A stretch of DNA of 64,000 nt from Gammaproteobacteria bacterium (GTDB lineage Bacteria > Pseudomonadota > Gammaproteobacteria > Ga0077554 > Ga007554): assembly GCA_021731145.1 (NCBI GenBank), contig JAKFXX010000006.1, positions 1-64,000 on the forward strand, read 5' to 3'. This document shows positions 56,918-64,000 of this stretch, piece by piece. The position numbers and the translations under genes are program-made. How positions within the stretch are numbered: position 1 is the first letter of the stretch; each line of letters starts with the position of its first letter. The notes under the pieces are model-generated. The model searched no databases and had not been told where the DNA came from. It saw only the letters and a program-made list of their open reading frames with translations.

Positions 56918-57838
56918 TTACCCCGCCATCGCCGCCTCCACTACCTTTCGCGTCAAGTGCGGCGCGAAGAGTTCGATGAAGGCATACATATAACCGCGCA
57001 GATAGCTGCCACGGCGGATACCGATGCGGGTGGTGCTGGGCTCGAACAGATGCGCGGCGTCGATGGCGCGCAGGCTTGTGTCGCGCGCGGGGTCGAAGGC
57101 CATGCTGGTAAGCAGCCCTATCCCCAGCCCCAGTTCGACATAGGTCTTGATCACGTCCGAGTCGAGCGCGGTAAATACCACGTTCGGTTCCAGCCCGTGC
57201 GCCTCGAAGGCCTGGTTGATCTTGGAACGCCCGGTGAAGGCAGAGTCATAGGTAACAATGGGATAACGGGCAACAGCTTCCAGCGTCAGTGGCCTCTCAT
57301 CCAATACCGGATGCCCGGGCGGCGCTACCACGCAGCGGTTCCATTGGTAACACGGCAGGGTCGCCAGGTCCTCGAACGAGGTAAGCGTCTCCGTGGCTAT
57401 CGCAATATCCGACACCCCTGATCTGACAAATTCCGTGACCTGCGCCGGGTTGCCCTGGTGCATGTGCAGGCTTACACCGGGATACCGTTCGGTGAAGGCC
57501 TTCACCACGGGGGGTAGGGCGTAGCGCGCCTGGGTGTGGGTGGTGGCAATGGAAAATGCACCGATGGTTTCGTTGGAAAACTCCTCACCCACCTGCCTGA
57601 TGTTCTCCATGTCGCGCAAAATGCGCTCCGCTATCGCCAGCACCTCCTTGCCAGGCGACGTCAGCCCGGTCAGACGCTTGGCGCCGCGTTCGAAGATATG
57701 CACATTCAGTTCTTCCTCAAGCAAACGGATCTGGTTGCTGATGCCGGGCTGGGCGGTGTGCAGTTTTTTGGCGGCGGCTGAAACACTGAGTCCCGAGCGC
57801 GCCACTTCACGGATGTAACGCAATTGCTGAATATTCAT
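56918..57838 (-). CDS. cysB: LysR-type regulator CysB
   Basis: This 306-residue regulator matches CysB along its length. The N-terminal winged HTH begins MNIQQLRYIREVARSGLSVS with LHTAQPGISNQIRLLEEEL. The inducer-binding part has FSIATTHTQARYALPP, DIAIATET and LDSDVIKTYVELGLGIGLL, where CysB binds N-acetylserine and sulfate or thiosulfate. It is divergent from an ABC transporter for sulfur compounds. A 17-bp palindrome in the 120-base gap is a good candidate for its operator. By family it activates sulfur-assimilation genes. Confidence 0.9.
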   Translation of the reverse strand: MNIQQLRYIREVARSGLSVSAAAKKLHTAQPGISNQIRLLEEELNVHIFERGAKRLTGLTSPGKEVLAIAERILRDMENIRQVGEEFSNETIGAFSIATTHTQARYALPPVVKAFTERYPGVSLHMHQGNPAQVTEFVRSGVSDIAIATETLTSFEDLATLPCYQWNRCVVAPPGHPVLDERPLTLEAVARYPIVTYDSAFTGRSKINQAFEAHGLEPNVVFTALDSDVIKTYVELGLGIGLLTSMAFDPARDTSLRAIDAAHLFEPSTTRIGIRRGSYLRGYMYAFIELFAPHLTRKVVEAAMAG

Positions 57839-57958: not shown

Positions 57959-58987
57959 ATGCGTTGGCGGTTATTAGCAGGGTTTTATGGCGTGATTCTG
58001 TCACTCGCAACGGGTTCGCCCGCCTTCGCGGATACGGTTATACGCGTCGGGCATCTTCCCAATCTCACCCACCCTCAGGCGCTGGTTGGGCGGGCGACAG
58101 GTGAATTCGAAAAAAATGCCGGGGCCAAGGTTGAATGGACGGCGTTTAATGCAGGCGCATCCGCCATGGAAGCCTTGCTGGCAGACGAACTGGATCTTGC
58201 CTATGTCGGCCCCAGTCCCGCGCTCAACGCCTATGTCCGCTCCAAAGGCCGGGTGTTGCGCGTCGTTGCCGGTGCGGCCAGTGGCGGCGTAGCGCTGGTG
58301 GTGCGCAAGGATGCAGGCATTCGCAACCCGGCTGATTTGAAAGGCAAACGGGTAGCTGTGCCGGGGCTGGGCAATACCCAGGATGTCGCCCTGCGTTCCT
58401 GGCTCAAGGCCAAGGGCTTGGGCGCGGGCAGCAGTGTGCAGGTCATGCCGGTCAAAAACCCGGAAATTTTCACTCTATTCCAGCGCAAAGAGCTGGATGC
58501 CGCCTGGGTGCCCGAGCCATGGGCCACGCGCCTGATACAGGAAGCCGGTGGCGTATTGTTTGTGGACGAAAGAGATTTGTGGCCGGAGGGAAAGTTTCCC
58601 TCCACCCTGCTGGTTGCCCGCACCGATTTTCTGGCGAAAAACCGTGCCTTGGTTAAGCGCTTTGTCGGCACCCATGTAGACCTGACGGAAGCGATTATTC
58701 AGAAGCCTGACGAGGCCAAGCACAACATCAACGCCCAGTTGGCCAAGCTGATGGGTAAACCCCTGCCTGCGGCGCAATTGGATGAAGCCTTTACGCGGAT
58801 CGCCGCCACTTACGACCCCATCCCCGGCGCACTCCTGAAAGCTGCCAGACAGGCTTGGGAATTGAAGTATCTGCCGGGCGCCCAGCCACCCGATGTGGCG
58901 CCTATTTTTGACCTGTCACTGCTCAATGAGACTCTGCGCGAACGCGGCAAACCCCTGGTCGCCGTTCCCGCTACGGTCAAGCGCTAA
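57959..58987 (+). CDS. SsuA-like sulfonate-type ABC substrate-binding protein
   Basis: This 342-residue periplasmic protein has a signal peptide (LLAGFYGVILSLATGSPAFA). The NitT/TauT-type binding fold starts TVIRVGHLPNLTHPQALVGR and includes GASAMEALLADELDLAYVGP and WVPEPWATRL. Closest families bind aliphatic sulfonates, taurine or nitrate. Adjacent CysB and sulfite reductase genes favour a sulfur compound. AAGGAG precedes ATG 57959. No desulfonating oxygenase (SsuD/TauD) is in view, so the compound remains open. Confidence 0.85.
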   Translation: MRWRLLAGFYGVILSLATGSPAFADTVIRVGHLPNLTHPQALVGRATGEFEKNAGAKVEWTAFNAGASAMEALLADELDLAYVGPSPALNAYVRSKGRVLRVVAGAASGGVALVVRKDAGIRNPADLKGKRVAVPGLGNTQDVALRSWLKAKGLGAGSSVQVMPVKNPEIFTLFQRKELDAAWVPEPWATRLIQEAGGVLFVDERDLWPEGKFPSTLLVARTDFLAKNRALVKRFVGTHVDLTEAIIQKPDEAKHNINAQLAKLMGKPLPAAQLDEAFTRIAATYDPIPGALLKAARQAWELKYLPGAQPPDVAPIFDLSLLNETLRERGKPLVAVPATVKR

Positions 58988-59008
58988 TACTGGACCAGGA
59001 GAGGCGAA

Positions 59009-59788
59009 ATGCCCAAAGTAGAGATCAACGGCGTATCCCAGGTGTTCTGGTCGCAATCCGGCGCGGTGCAGGCGCTGGCGGAAACGTCACTGTCGATAGA
59101 CGAAGGTGAATTTGTCTGTATCGTTGGCCCGTCGGGCTGTGGCAAATCCACTTTGCTGAATCTGGTCGCAGGGCTGGCAAAACCGGACACCGGCCACGTG
59201 ATTGCAAATGGCAAGCCCGTGACCGGCCCCGGCCCCGACCGCGTGGTGATGTTTCAGGAGTCCGGCCTCTTTCCGTGGCTTAACGTCCTGCAAAACGTCA
59301 TGTTCGGGCTGAAAATGGCTGGCGTGCCCGAGCCGGAAAGGCGTGAACGTGCCGAAAAGCTGCTGCACATGGTTCACTTGTCGCGCTTCACCCAGGCATG
59401 GGTGCATGAGCTGTCGGGCGGCATGAAACAGCGCGTGGCTCTGGCGCGGGCATTGGCGCCGAACCCTGACATCTTGCTCATGGACGAACCGTTTGCCGCG
59501 CTGGACGCCCAGACGCGAGACATGCTCCACGATGAACTCGAAGACTTGTGGGCTAGCACCCGCAAAACCATCATCTTCGTTACCCACAATGTGCGCGAAG
59601 CAGTGCGTCTCGGCACCCGGGTCATCGTCATGACCGCCCGTCCGGGCCGGGTAAAGAGCATCTATGACATTGACCTGCCTCGCCCCCGTCATATTGAGGA
59701 TGTCGGACTGGTCAAAATCGCGGCGACCATCCGCGACGACTTGCGTGGCGAAGTGTTACAGGCCACTCACGAGGAAGGAATAGACTGA
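59009..59788 (+). CDS. SsuB/TauB-type ABC transporter ATPase
   Basis: This 259-residue ATPase powers the transporter. Walker A is GPSGCGKST near residue 41, the signature is LSGGMKQRVALARAL near 138, and Walker B is ILLMDEPFAALDAQT near 160, with the H-loop in FVTHNVREAV. Its stop overlaps the start of the permease gene by one base. It lies 21 bases after the binding-protein gene. Confidence 0.92.
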   Translation: MPKVEINGVSQVFWSQSGAVQALAETSLSIDEGEFVCIVGPSGCGKSTLLNLVAGLAKPDTGHVIANGKPVTGPGPDRVVMFQESGLFPWLNVLQNVMFGLKMAGVPEPERRERAEKLLHMVHLSRFTQAWVHELSGGMKQRVALARALAPNPDILLMDEPFAALDAQTRDMLHDELEDLWASTRKTIIFVTHNVREAVRLGTRVIVMTARPGRVKSIYDIDLPRPRHIEDVGLVKIAATIRDDLRGEVLQATHEEGID

Positions 59789-60630
59789 TGAATAACGTTG
59801 CGCACCAAGCCCCATCCGCAGCGCTCACTGCCATCGCGCAAACCAAGGCGCGCAAAGACCGGCTCGACCGCTGGCGCATCTATGCAATGCGCCTGGCATT
59901 TTTTGCCTCATTGATAGGCCTGTGGCACGCGCTGGTGTGGCTGGAAGTATGGGACGAGATGATCTTCCCCTCATTGCCGCAGGTGACAGAAACACTGTGG
60001 CTTGGCATGAGCGACCAATCGCTGCCGGCCGCCATCGCCATCAGCATGCAACGGCTACTAATCGGATATGGACTGGCGCTGTGCATCGGCATACCGCTCG
60101 GCCTGTTGCTGGGCCGTGTGCGCTGGCTGAACGAGACGGTTGGGATGCTTGCGATGGGGCTACAGGCACTGCCGAGTATTTGCTGGTTGCCCCTGGCGGT
60201 GCTGTGGTTCGGCCTGGGCGAGAGCGCGATGATCTTTGTGGTGGTGATGGGCGCCCTCATGGCGCTGACTTTGGCGACACGCGACGGGGTCAAAAACATG
60301 CCGCCACTTTATATGCGGGCGGCCCATGTGCTGGGCGCCAGCGGCTGGCGGCTGTATGTTCATGTGATGTTGCCTGCCACACTGCCCGCTGTACTGACCG
60401 GAGCAAAGCTGGGCTGGTCGTTTGCCTGGCGCTCATTAATGGCCGCCGAACTGCTGCTGGTGGGGGTGGGTCTTGGCTCATTGCTGGAACGAGGCCGCGA
60501 ATTGCACGACATGTCGCTGGTGGTGGCGGTGATGGTGGTCATCATGTTCGTTGGCCTGATGACCGATCGCTGGCTGTTCAGCCGCCTGGAACAGCGATTC
60601 GTCCATCGCCGCTGGGGAACGTCCGCATAA
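59788..60630 (+). CDS. SsuC/TauC-type ABC transporter permease
   Basis: This 280-residue permease has about six membrane helices. The cytoplasmic EAA-like loop reads YMRAAHVLGASGWRLYVHVM-LP. The C-terminal helix VVAVMVVIMFVGLMTDRWLF is typical for SsuC. The TGATG overlap with the ATPase gene shows tight coupling. It closes the three-gene transporter operon; the AT-rich region with the second palindrome follows. Confidence 0.9.
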   Translation: MNNVAHQAPSAALTAIAQTKARKDRLDRWRIYAMRLAFFASLIGLWHALVWLEVWDEMIFPSLPQVTETLWLGMSDQSLPAAIAISMQRLLIGYGLALCIGIPLGLLLGRVRWLNETVGMLAMGLQALPSICWLPLAVLWFGLGESAMIFVVVMGALMALTLATRDGVKNMPPLYMRAAHVLGASGWRLYVHVMLPATLPAVLTGAKLGWSFAWRSLMAAELLLVGVGLGSLLERGRELHDMSLVVAVMVVIMFVGLMTDRWLFSRLEQRFVHRRWGTSA

Positions 60631-60893: not shown

Positions 60894-61673
60894 ATGGAAT
60901 GGGCATATACCGTAGCAGGCCTGGTGGTCGGCTTCATCGTGGGCGTGACCGGCATGGGCGGCGGCGCGTTGATGACGCCGCTGCTGATCCTGCTGTTCAA
61001 CATCTCCCCGGCCATGGCGATAGGCACGGACCTTTTGTTTGCCTCGATCACCAAATCAGGCGGTGTCTTGGTACATGGGCGCCGTGGCAATGTGGACTGG
61101 AAGATCGTCAAGCTGCTGTGCATGGGCAGCCTGCCTGCGGCGGCGCTGGTGGTTCTCCTGCTCCAGCAGTACAGTGGCGGTAGCTCTGGCGATATGAAGA
61201 AGGTGTTGACCACGTCACTGGGCATTGCGCTGCTGCTTACCGCGCCAGTGATTCTGTTCAAAAATCGATTATTGCACATCGCCCAGTCCAGGTTGAACCT
61301 GCAGCGCTTTGTTCATTGGCGCGGTCCGGCCACGATCCTTGCCGGTGCCGTGGTAGGGGCGCTGGTGACGCTGTCGTCGGTTGGTGCGGGTGTACTGGGC
61401 ACCATGACGCTGTTTTTCCTGTATCCCTACCTGTCCTCAGTGAGGGTGGTAGGCACCGACATCGCCCACGCCGTACCGTTAACGGCGGTCGCGGGCTTGG
61501 GTCATATGAGTTTGGGCCATGTCGACTTCACGTTGCTGGGAAGCCTGCTGCTCGGTTCACTGCCTGGTATTTACCTCGGTAGCCATTTAAGCAGTAAAAT
61601 TCCCGAAAAGGTATTGCGCCCTATCCTGGGCAGTGTGCTGCTGTTGTTCGGCGCCAAATTTACCTTTGCCTGA
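60894..61673 (+). CDS. TauE/SafE-family sulfite exporter-like permease
   Basis: This 259-residue membrane protein has two repeated halves, the first starting AGLVVGFIVGVTGMGGGALM and the second near VVGALVTLSSVGAGVLG, the layout of the TauE/SafE (DUF81) family. Members export sulfite or sulfoacetate or move other sulfur anions. Its setting between a sulfur ABC transporter and sulfite reductase supports a sulfite-related job. GTGAGG upstream of the ATG lies at the edge of the MITE-like element. The direction of transport is not known. Confidence 0.85.
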   Translation: MEWAYTVAGLVVGFIVGVTGMGGGALMTPLLILLFNISPAMAIGTDLLFASITKSGGVLVHGRRGNVDWKIVKLLCMGSLPAAALVVLLLQQYSGGSSGDMKKVLTTSLGIALLLTAPVILFKNRLLHIAQSRLNLQRFVHWRGPATILAGAVVGALVTLSSVGAGVLGTMTLFFLYPYLSSVRVVGTDIAHAVPLTAVAGLGHMSLGHVDFTLLGSLLLGSLPGIYLGSHLSSKIPEKVLRPILGSVLLLFGAKFTFA

Positions 61674-61740: not shown

Positions 61741-64000
61741 ATGATTAACGCAGAACATCTCGTCAATAGCGAGGAGATCAGCCGCTACGAAGAGGCGGTA
61801 AAGTCCTACCTGGGCTTACAGATCGACCCTGACCGCTTCATGTCGATCCGACTGCAGCATGGCGTCTACGGCCAGCGTCAGGATGGCGTGCACATGATGC
61901 GCGTCAAGATCCCCGGCGGCACGCTGAATCCCGCGCAACTCACCGCCATTGCCGATGTGCTGGAGCAGTACGTCAACCATCCGGTGGCGCACATTACCAC
62001 CCGCCAGGACATCCAGATTCACTACGTGCCTCTGGAGGACACCCCTGCGGCGATGCGTCGCCTGGCCGACGCCGGGCTGACCACGCGCGAGGCCTGCGGC
62101 AATACCGTGCGCAACATCACCGCCTGCCCGCTTGCGGGGGTGTGCCCGCGTGAACATCTCGACATCACGCCGCTGATGGAAGGGACGGTTACGCACTTCC
62201 TGCGTCATCCGCTGACACAGCATCTGCCACGCAAGTTCAAAATGAGCTTCTCCGGCTGCGAGGCCGATTGCGCGCAGGGCATGATGCACGATCTGGGCGC
62301 GGTGGCGGTCAAGAAGGACGGGCGTTATGGCTTCAAGATCGTGGCGGGCGGCGGGCTGGGCCACAAGCCGCACGAGGCGATTACGGTTGAAGAGTTCATC
62401 GAGGAGCAAGACCTGCTGCCCAGCATCGAGGCTATCGTCTCCCTGCACCACCGCTATTCCGACCGCAAACGCCGCGCCAAGGCGCGCATCAAATTCCTGG
62501 TGGATAAGTTTGGCGCGCAAGGTTTTGTCGAAAAATACAAAGAGGAATTTGCCCGCACCAAGGCGGCCCTCGCGGACAAACCCCGCCCCGCCGGTGTGTG
62601 GACAGGCGGTACGCCGGGTGTAGCCTGCGGCATGGGTGCGCCGCGCCATGTGTTCGCGCAAAAACAGTCCGGCTTGCACGTATTCCCGGTCAGTATTCCC
62701 ATCGGTGACATCACCGGCCCGCAGATGCGCGGCATCGTCAAGCTGATGGAAGACCAAGGCTTGCAGGAAATGCGCGTCACCCAGGATCAAAACCTGATGC
62801 TGCTCAATGTGCCCGAGACCGCCATCCCGTCAATTCGCGCCGGGATTGAAGCGTTGGGTCTGGGCGAACCCAAGGCCGGTGACGATGTTGTCGCCTGCCC
62901 CGGCACCTCCACCTGCCGCCTGGGTATCACCTCCAGCAAGATCATCGGCACCAAGATCTCCGGCGGGACCGCCGATCTGCGCATCCGCGCCAGCGGTTGC
63001 CATAACGGCTGCGCGCAGCCCGAGACCGGCGACATCGGCATCTACGGCGAGGGCAACCGCCTGCATGGCAAGCTGGTGCCGCACTACCAGATGTACTTCG
63101 GCGGCGATGGCCGTAGCGCAGGCGGGCTGGCCCTCAAAGGCCCTTCCGTGCCCGCCGCACGCATCGAGGCTGCGGTTACACGCGTAGAGGAGACCTACAC
63201 CAAGGATCGTAATGAAGGCGAAACCTTCTTCCACTGGGCGCACCGCCACGGTAAGGAATACTTTACGGCGCTGCTGCAAGATCTCGTCAAGGTCGCGCCC
63301 GAGGAATTGTCTTCCGTGCTCCACGATCACGGTGAGGCCAATGACTTCAAAGTGCTGCAACTCGGTGGTGGTGAGTGCGCCGGTGCAGCACAGGAGTTCG
63401 TCGCCTCACACTTTGCCGAGGCAACCTACGAGCGCGATTGCCGCAATTCCTTTGCCTCCCAGCACAAATACCTGGACGCACTGGAGTGCAGCGAAGCGAT
63501 AGGCCGTCTGATCGGCGAGTCATTGCTGTTCTCTTCAGGGCGCGCAGCCGTACCCGGATTGCCCGCAATCGCTGCGGTGTTGCAGGAGTCGTTGCAGCAG
63601 GACGCCCACCTGGGTGCCAAGCTGGCGGAAATGGCCAGCAGCATCGCGCAATTGAAAGACACCTTCGATGAACAGGGATACGCCAGGCTGGTGGCGGATC
63701 AGGATACCTGGATCGCGCAATCCGCCCAGGCCTGCCAAGGCCTTGACCGCCAGCTTAACCTGACCGTCTCCATCACCGCACCTGCGGCGAAGGCCAAAAT
63801 CGCCGAAGTCATAGACTTGTCCACCTACGGTTGCCCGCTGCACTACCTCAAGGCACGCAACGCGCTGAATGCCGTGCAGATAGGCGATGTGGTGGATTTT
63901 CTGCTGGAATCCGGTGAATCCACCCAGCAGGTAGCCTCCAGCCTGGAAGGCGATGGGCACCGCGTGCTCTACAAAGAGGAGCGCGGCACGACAACGCGCA
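61741..64000 (+). CDS. nitrite/sulfite reductase fused to a TusA domain (runs off the window)
   Basis: At least 753 residues are encoded. Two ferredoxin-like/siroheme halves span ~1-500. Half one has ITACPLAGVC (~residue 130) and SGCEADC (~173); half two has ACPGTSTC (~386) and SGCHNGC (~422). Each is the C-x5-C ... C-x3-C pattern that binds a 4Fe-4S cluster and siroheme. A helical region follows (~500-685, with GGGECAGAAQEF). A TusA/SirA-like domain begins ~690 (VIDLSTYGCPLHYLKARNAL), with the sulfur-carrying cysteine in CP. Assimilatory sulfite reduction by ferredoxin or a similar donor is likely. ATG 61741 follows GGAG. Confidence 0.88.
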   Translation, partial: MINAEHLVNSEEISRYEEAVKSYLGLQIDPDRFMSIRLQHGVYGQRQDGVHMMRVKIPGGTLNPAQLTAIADVLEQYVNHPVAHITTRQDIQIHYVPLEDTPAAMRRLADAGLTTREACGNTVRNITACPLAGVCPREHLDITPLMEGTVTHFLRHPLTQHLPRKFKMSFSGCEADCAQGMMHDLGAVAVKKDGRYGFKIVAGGGLGHKPHEAITVEEFIEEQDLLPSIEAIVSLHHRYSDRKRRAKARIKFLVDKFGAQGFVEKYKEEFARTKAALADKPRPAGVWTGGTPGVACGMGAPRHVFAQKQSGLHVFPVSIPIGDITGPQMRGIVKLMEDQGLQEMRVTQDQNLMLLNVPETAIPSIRAGIEALGLGEPKAGDDVVACPGTSTCRLGITSSKIIGTKISGGTADLRIRASGCHNGCAQPETGDIGIYGEGNRLHGKLVPHYQMYFGGDGRSAGGLALKGPSVPAARIEAAVTRVEETYTKDRNEGETFFHWAHRHGKEYFTALLQDLVKVAPEELSSVLHDHGEANDFKVLQLGGGECAGAAQEFVASHFAEATYERDCRNSFASQHKYLDALECSEAIGRLIGESLLFSSGRAAVPGLPAIAAVLQESLQQDAHLGAKLAEMASSIAQLKDTFDEQGYARLVADQDTWIAQSAQACQGLDRQLNLTVSITAPAAKAKIAEVIDLSTYGCPLHYLKARNALNAVQIGDVVDFLLESGESTQQVASSLEGDGHRVLYKEERGTTTR

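Follow-up and report, generated by a model that had tools for sequence, protein, structure and literature searches.

Gene organization

The last gene in the window (the whole stretch of DNA analysed, 64,000 nucleotides long) encodes a sulfite reductase-HEPN-TusA fusion protein. The frame opens with the ATG at 61741 on the plus strand and is cut by the window end; the contig (G000:C1, 203,697 bp) continues it to 64038, 38 bp beyond the window, giving a protein of 765 aa. All of the motifs quoted in an earlier note on this DNA (CPLAGVC, GCEADC, CPGTSTC, GCHNGC and YGCPLHYLKAR, the last containing Cys698) are found in this single frame. A chance frame or pseudogene is ruled out by conservation in 81 relatives. 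The gene and its upstream neighbours are as follows:

56918..57838, minus strand: CysB-type LysR regulator (profile match; order seen in the loci of relatives)
57959..60630, plus strand: ABC transporter with NMT1-type binding protein, ATPase and permease (profile matches)
60894..61673, plus strand: TauE/SafE sulfite-exporter family protein (upstream neighbour, kept in the clusters of relatives)
61741..64000 in the window, to 64038 in the contig, plus strand: sulfite reductase-HEPN-TusA fusion gene (Pfam; AlphaFold2 model)

The ABC transporter is likely to take up sulfonates or sulfate esters. Downstream of the fusion gene are genes for CysH, which passes the APS-reductase cut-off (TIGR02055, 260.9 against 235.3), and then phosphoribulokinase. 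The order CysB, TauE, fusion-family sulfite reductase (SiR) and CysH, often with CysD and CysN, is found again in Nitrosospira and Gallionella and at many gammaproteobacterial loci. In Nitrospira loci the order is Rrf2, family SiR, CysH, TrpD-like, CysD and CysNC. The TrpD-like gene, a glycosyl transferase family 3 gene between CysH and CysD, is conserved in L086 (9214-10320) and about 25 Nitrospira loci. A locus titled uncultured Nitrosospira (L098, CAADGK010000033) has the Nitrospira order (Rrf2, SiR-TusA, CysH, TrpD) and is probably mislabelled.

The only other siroheme reductase found in the window genome (99.99% complete) is NirB, encoded elsewhere in the genome, and the dsrA model has no match above its cut-off there. 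Because of these two results and the sulfate-assimilation neighbours, the fusion protein is read as an assimilatory sulfite reductase; it very likely reduces sulfite, and its gene is the sole candidate in this cell for dedicated sulfite reduction.

Domain architecture and predicted structure

The chain consists of two NiR/SiR halves, a flexible GECAG loop, a HEPN-like four-helix bundle and a TusA domain. In the list below, R/R/K/K denotes the predicted sulfite-binding residues Arg88, Arg124, Lys165 and Lys167, and Cys4 a set of four cluster cysteines (CX5C and CX3C).

61867..62556, plus strand: N-terminal NiR/SiR half, residues 43-272, DsrA-like, with R/R/K/K and Cys4 (Pfam, half alignment, structure comparison)
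62653..63270, plus strand: C-terminal NiR/SiR half, residues 305-510, DsrB-like, with Cys4 and without R/R/K/K (Pfam, half alignment, structure comparison)
63370..63384, plus strand: GECAG loop with Cys546 (conservation among relatives; model)
63391..63768, plus strand: HEPN-like four-helix bundle, residues 551-676, model match from 550 (2hsb, Z 13.9-14.1, rmsd 2.4 over 119; a Z near 14 can be generic among helical bundles)
63808..63993, plus strand: TusA domain, residues 690-751 matched, with Cys698 at 63832-63834 (Pfam, structure comparison, conservation)

The earlier note had called for a comparison with protein families and known structures. This identified NIR_SIR, NIR_SIR_ferr and TusA by Pfam, and the NirA, HEPN and TusA folds by structure. 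NIR_SIR_ferr and NIR_SIR each match twice (4e-48 over the full chain); with these modules, R/R/K/K and a Cys4 set, the protein belongs to the siroheme NiR/SiR superfamily. The AlphaFold2 model was built with 38 family sequences (pLDDT 89.7, pTM 0.83). Residues 11-509 of the model superpose on Mycobacterium tuberculosis NirA (1zj8; Z 39.5, rmsd 2.7 over 475), and the N-half also matches Fsr (Z 21.4).

A NirA-type enzyme is thus the closest structure, and there is also a sub-threshold match to NCBIfam PRK09567, so that a nitrite reductase might be considered in place of a sulfite reductase. Such a function is extremely improbable. Every equivalog cut-off is missed, those of the NirA nitrite reductases included (PRK09567, 229 against 523 bits; PRK09566, 221 against 594 bits), the surrounding genes are those of sulfate assimilation, and NirB is located elsewhere in the genome. 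This reading was set aside because of the gene context and the missed cut-offs.

When the helical part was folded alone, its top structural matches were the HEPN entries 2hsb, 4nqf and 3o10. The Pfam HEPN cut-off is exceeded by relatives from Nitrospira and Nitrospinae (L086, L110) but not by the window protein. The sole candidate for the HEPN RNase-toxin motif RX4-6H, RNSFASQH, is unconserved by eye among the listed sequences. Cys546 of the GECAG loop, absent from the earlier note, is a ninth invariant cysteine (80/80 sequences); the adjoining residues 547-551 have a pLDDT below 50. The model shows disorder in the linker ahead of TusA (681-687). The TusA domain itself has the expected fold, a CPxx cysteine and a PF01206 match above the cut-off (31.9 bits against 28.6), and model residues 685-753 superpose on 3hz7 (Z 9.9) and E. 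coli TusA (3lvj, Z 9.7).

Two cysteine sets and one set of sulfite-binding residues

Conservation was scored in 81 non-redundant relatives below 85% identity, out of 120 family sequences. The residues concerned are:

62002..62004, plus strand: Arg88 of the TTRQ motif, predicted sulfite/siroheme site (position of E. coli CysI Arg83 in the half alignment; invariant, 81 relatives)
62110..62112, plus strand: Arg124, predicted sulfite/siroheme site (position of E. coli Arg153; invariant, 81 relatives)
62125..62145, plus strand: N-half CX5C, CPLAGVC, Cys129 and Cys135 (99% and 99% Cys, 81 relatives)
62233..62241, plus strand: Lys165 and Lys167 (RKFK), predicted sulfite-binding lysines (half alignment; invariant, 81 relatives)
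62257..62271, plus strand: N-half CX3C, GCEADC, Cys173 and Cys177 (100% and 99% Cys, 81 relatives)
62896..62916, plus strand: C-half CX5C, CPGTSTC, Cys386 and Cys392 (100% Cys, 81 relatives)
62998..63012, plus strand: C-half CX3C, GCHNGC, Cys420 and Cys424 (100% Cys, 81 relatives)

From its role in known SiR structures, Cys424 is presumed to be the bridge between the cluster and the siroheme iron. Four control cysteines outside these sets (C296, C567, C583, C665) are 9-44% conserved, and C119 is 95% conserved (81 relatives). All four N-half cysteines are present in 118/120 family sequences. This set is absent outside the family (E. coli CysI, the CysI-like proteins L016-L021 and the Deinococcus, Acinetobacter and Burkholderia enzymes), which bears out, for the usual ferredoxin and NADPH enzymes, the earlier statement that the C-half alone keeps all four cysteines. 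The supposition that a group of bacterial reductases shares both features also proved correct, with the N-half set in those 118 sequences and TusA in 46 relatives.

The single-repeat relatives NirB and DsrA carry the same Cys4 motif as each half. Two haloarchaeal plasmid reductases (L169:460-2223 and L170:463-2235, annotated as ferredoxin--nitrite reductase and nitrate-sulfite reductase) have N-half cysteines at the C129, C173 and C177 positions, three out of four; these may be a remnant of a second cluster site outside the fusion family. Rooting of the fused enzymes falls where long branches meet, and the argument for the age of the two sets is based on the motif common to single-repeat relatives and on this three-of-four remnant, which suggest that both are ancestral.

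The half alignment likens the N-half to DsrA, with which it shares KFK lysines and a CX5C..CX3C set of its own, and the C-half to DsrB, which likewise has the cysteines without the basic residues. At the C-half positions equivalent to R/R/K/K, the first three are mostly D/E, D/N and D/G, and the fourth is variable and sometimes basic (81 relatives). The siroheme site kept by DsrA is inactive and structural (PMC10229431). Because of this DsrA/DsrB precedent and the restriction of R/R/K/K to the N-half, each chain very probably has one catalytic site and, at the N-half cysteines, a second cluster site whose role is probably structural. The earlier suggestion of two cofactor sites in one chain therefore stands for the clusters but not for the active sites, as R/R/K/K occurs once, in the N-half, where it is predicted to serve the C-half cluster.

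Two catalytic siroheme-[4Fe-4S] sites per chain would agree with the completeness and conservation of both Cys4 sets, with the motif shared by single-repeat NirB and DsrA, and with the working site in each Fsr protomer (PMC10229431). Given that the sulfite-binding residues are found in the N-half only, with acidic or small residues at the C-half positions in most of the 81 relatives, this arrangement is very unlikely and was set aside as the main reading.

The N-half cluster could also be a bare [4Fe-4S] relay, carrying electrons from ferredoxin to the catalytic siroheme and holding no tetrapyrrole. Conservation of its cysteines contrasts with an acidic, variable surface on the facing C-half, and the N-half CX3C spacing varies by lineage (CX2C and CX4C are also seen), as might be expected of a site freed of siroheme bridging. 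However, DsrB also lacks the basic residues, yet the DsrA site holds a tetrapyrrole (PMC10229431). Canonical enzymes, moreover, work without an N-half cluster, as do L115 and L166, and the relay is considered a doubtful alternative to a structural site.

The last two are exceptions within the sequences compared. L166:1408-3591, on a Persicobacter plasmid (CP012860, Bacteroidota), keeps GECAG and the C-terminal helical region, with none of the four N-half cysteines and no TusA. In L115 (L161:4805-7090, genome G364) two N-half cysteines and the fused-TusA cysteine are gone but all catalytic residues remain; in this one lineage the two features lapsed together. These losses indicate that neither the N-half set nor the TusA cysteine is essential to reduction.

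Distribution of the TusA domain

The family has members in Pseudomonadota, Nitrospirota, Nitrospinota and Omnitrophota, among them Nitrospira, Mariprofundus, Nitrosospira and Gallionella, and is a widespread, little-described type of bacterial sulfite reductase. A fusion of HEPN or TusA to a sulfite reductase was not found described in the open-access literature, the scope of that search, subscription papers lying outside it. The TusA cysteine, whose conservation the earlier note had proposed to check, is kept in 45 of the 46 TusA-bearing relatives. In many close orthologues (Nitrosospira/Nitrosomonadaceae, Gallionella, Magnetospirillum) everything else is kept but the domain is absent altogether; TusA is therefore an add-on that is not essential to reduction. 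A single clade of TusA-bearing sequences is rejected (AU p 2e-53), which rules out a lineage-specific accident and means that the fusion is either old, with losses, or recurrent. Some Mariprofundia genomes also have a second, different large TusA-bearing frame of 852-865 aa (G089:C42:95189, G097:C1:285597, G161:C3:899599).

In all seven gene-bearing genomes of the window organism's family, the fused TusA is the sole TusA found, so it must also cover any general TusA role there. The domain might accordingly serve another pathway (tRNA thiolation or molybdopterin), being fused for co-expression or supply and receiving no sulfur from the reductase; that many relatives do without the fusion fits such a role. 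This explanation is possible but rather unlikely. In Mariprofundia, the adjacent genes for E1, a CysO-like carrier and CysK point to sulfur assimilation, and G364, which has free TusA genes besides the degenerate fused TusA, has lost the fused cysteine, so that fused and general roles look separable.

Mariprofundia operons and proposed sulfur transfer

An E1 protein (ThiF family, 273 aa, without rhodanese) is encoded directly upstream of the fusion gene in 25/25 Mariprofundia loci of one set, and the same E1 is directly upstream in further Mariprofundia loci that reach far enough. Five Mariprofundia loci have the order thrC, CysO-like ThiS, NIL, cysK, E1, SiR-TusA, and the operon also has CysHDN. 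The ThiS-family carrier in these five loci is 91-98 aa long, ends in PAIAGG and in Mariprofundus PV-1 scores 65.6 bits (against 22.5). The GG end is exact in L072; in the other four (L104:3116-3409, L105, L109 and L114) GG is followed by one residue (R, C, R, K), and such a carrier would need clipping before activation. A JAB protein is encoded elsewhere in the same genomes. In PV-1, a single 894-aa frame (L104:8295-10976) matches both radical SAM and a sodium:sulfate symporter; in L072 these are two separate frames.

An operon combining the fusion gene with those for carrier, E1 and cysteine synthase was seen in Mariprofundia only. Profile searches of the window genome (PF00899, PF02597, PF14464) found no CysO-like gene or operon; instead it encodes MoeB, a rhodanese-E1, MoaD beside MoaE, ThiS beside ThiG and a stand-alone JAB protein. 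Two incomplete ThiF (E1) matches, each at the edge of a contig (G000:C11:6-299 and G000:C18:3-545), probably belong to one E1 split by assembly; in the congener G003 the rhodanese-E1 gene is intact.

SirA (TusA-type), a predicted rhodanese stand-in, is always present in sulfur-assimilation operons that combine ThiS/MoaD, JAB and a rhodanese-free E1 (PMC1779556). The sulfur source of mycobacterial CysO is described as unknown (PMC3227635), and assimilatory SiRs are reported to make zero-valent sulfur (S0) rather than sulfide (PMC13188885). Together with the operon, these reports favour, in Mariprofundia, a relay from sulfite through siroheme-bound sulfur, Cys698 persulfide and CysO thiocarboxylate to cysteine. 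The earlier proposal that TusA takes sulfide or persulfide from the reductase is thus upheld in part: the cysteine is conserved, and the Mariprofundia CysO/E1/CysK operon gives the best support for a direct hand-over via TusA to a carrier protein. Against it, the domain is absent from many orthologues. The transfer, both to TusA and onward, is an inference.

Proposed model

The explanation preferred here, which is considered moderately probable, is a distinct family of assimilatory siroheme sulfite reductases with one catalytic site, a second, non-catalytic [4Fe-4S] cluster, and a TusA Cys698 that takes and passes on persulfide sulfur. Each half of the fused, duplicated chain would have kept its ancestral Cys4 set. 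The catalytic site would be formed by the C-half cluster, siroheme and N-half R88, R124, K165 and K167. The N-half cysteines would hold the second [4Fe-4S], with or without siroheme, at a pseudo-symmetric non-catalytic position like the DsrAB structural site. The C-terminal HEPN bundle would hold the TusA domain, whose Cys698 would receive sulfur from the reduction site as persulfide and donate it to an acceptor downstream; in Mariprofundia this would be the E1/CysO-like pair for cysteine synthesis. More tentatively, and with doubt, a channel without free sulfide could be envisaged, in which siroheme sulfur passes to TusA (perhaps via Cys546, in a DsrC-like manner), then to the E1-activated CysO-like protein and into cysteine by a persulfide/thiocarboxylate relay. 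The core would then be a surviving duplication-fusion intermediate with both cluster sites loaded.

Assimilatory SiRs are reported to have been born of duplication and fusion, with one of the two sites lost (PMC10229431). As the fusion family keeps both, this evolutionary step can be tested on extant enzymes. In Mariprofundia, where the fused TusA neighbours cysK, a CysO-like carrier and a rhodanese-free E1, the reductase is a concrete candidate sulfur source for such carriers, and the family bears on the report of S0 as the product of assimilatory SiRs (PMC13188885). If the model is true, sulfur may pass straight into cysteine synthesis with no toxic sulfide released.

Comparison with known systems

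The window protein shares the fused pseudo-dimer, the fold, R/R/K/K and the C-half Cys4 with M. tuberculosis NirA, plant ferredoxin NiR/SiR and E. coli CysI. Those enzymes lack the N-half Cys4, the GECAG loop, HEPN and TusA, all of which it has. The canonical SiR cut-offs in NCBIfam are missed (TIGR02041, 112 against 756.6; TIGR02042, 111 against 731.5; PRK13504, 168 against 457 bits), and the canonical confinement of Cys4 to the C-half does not hold for a family with a nearly universal N-half set (118/120). Fsr and NirB each have a single half with CX5C..CX3C, as in both halves of the window protein, but have no duplication within the chain and other electron-donor modules.

DsrAB is alike in having two cluster sites, a DsrA-like half with KFK and Cys4 and a DsrB-like half with cysteines and no KFK. 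DsrAB hands sulfur to a protein cysteine, that of DsrC, and a similar hand-over is proposed here. Unlike DsrAB, the window enzyme is one chain rather than two, retains the arginine that DsrA replaces and lies in an assimilatory gene context; separate DsrA and DsrB chains scoring above the dsrA/dsrB cut-offs are not found.

The class 4e operons of Iyer et al. 2006 combine ThiS/MoaD, JAB, an E1 without rhodanese, SirA and a sulfite reductase, and in actinobacteria ThiS is fused to the sulfite reductase C-terminus (PMC1779556). The Mariprofundia operon shares with class 4e the ThiS-like carrier, the E1 without rhodanese, SirA/TusA and the sulfite reductase, with the JAB gene elsewhere in the genome. 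It differs in having TusA covalently joined to a reductase that also contains a HEPN spacer and a second cluster site, and the window genome lacks the carrier operon. The CysO-like carrier beside cysteine synthase and E1 also recalls the CysO-CysM-MoeZ system of M. tuberculosis, in which MoeZ has its own rhodanese and the sulfur source is the one described as unknown (PMC3227635); in Mariprofundia, SiR-TusA would be that source.
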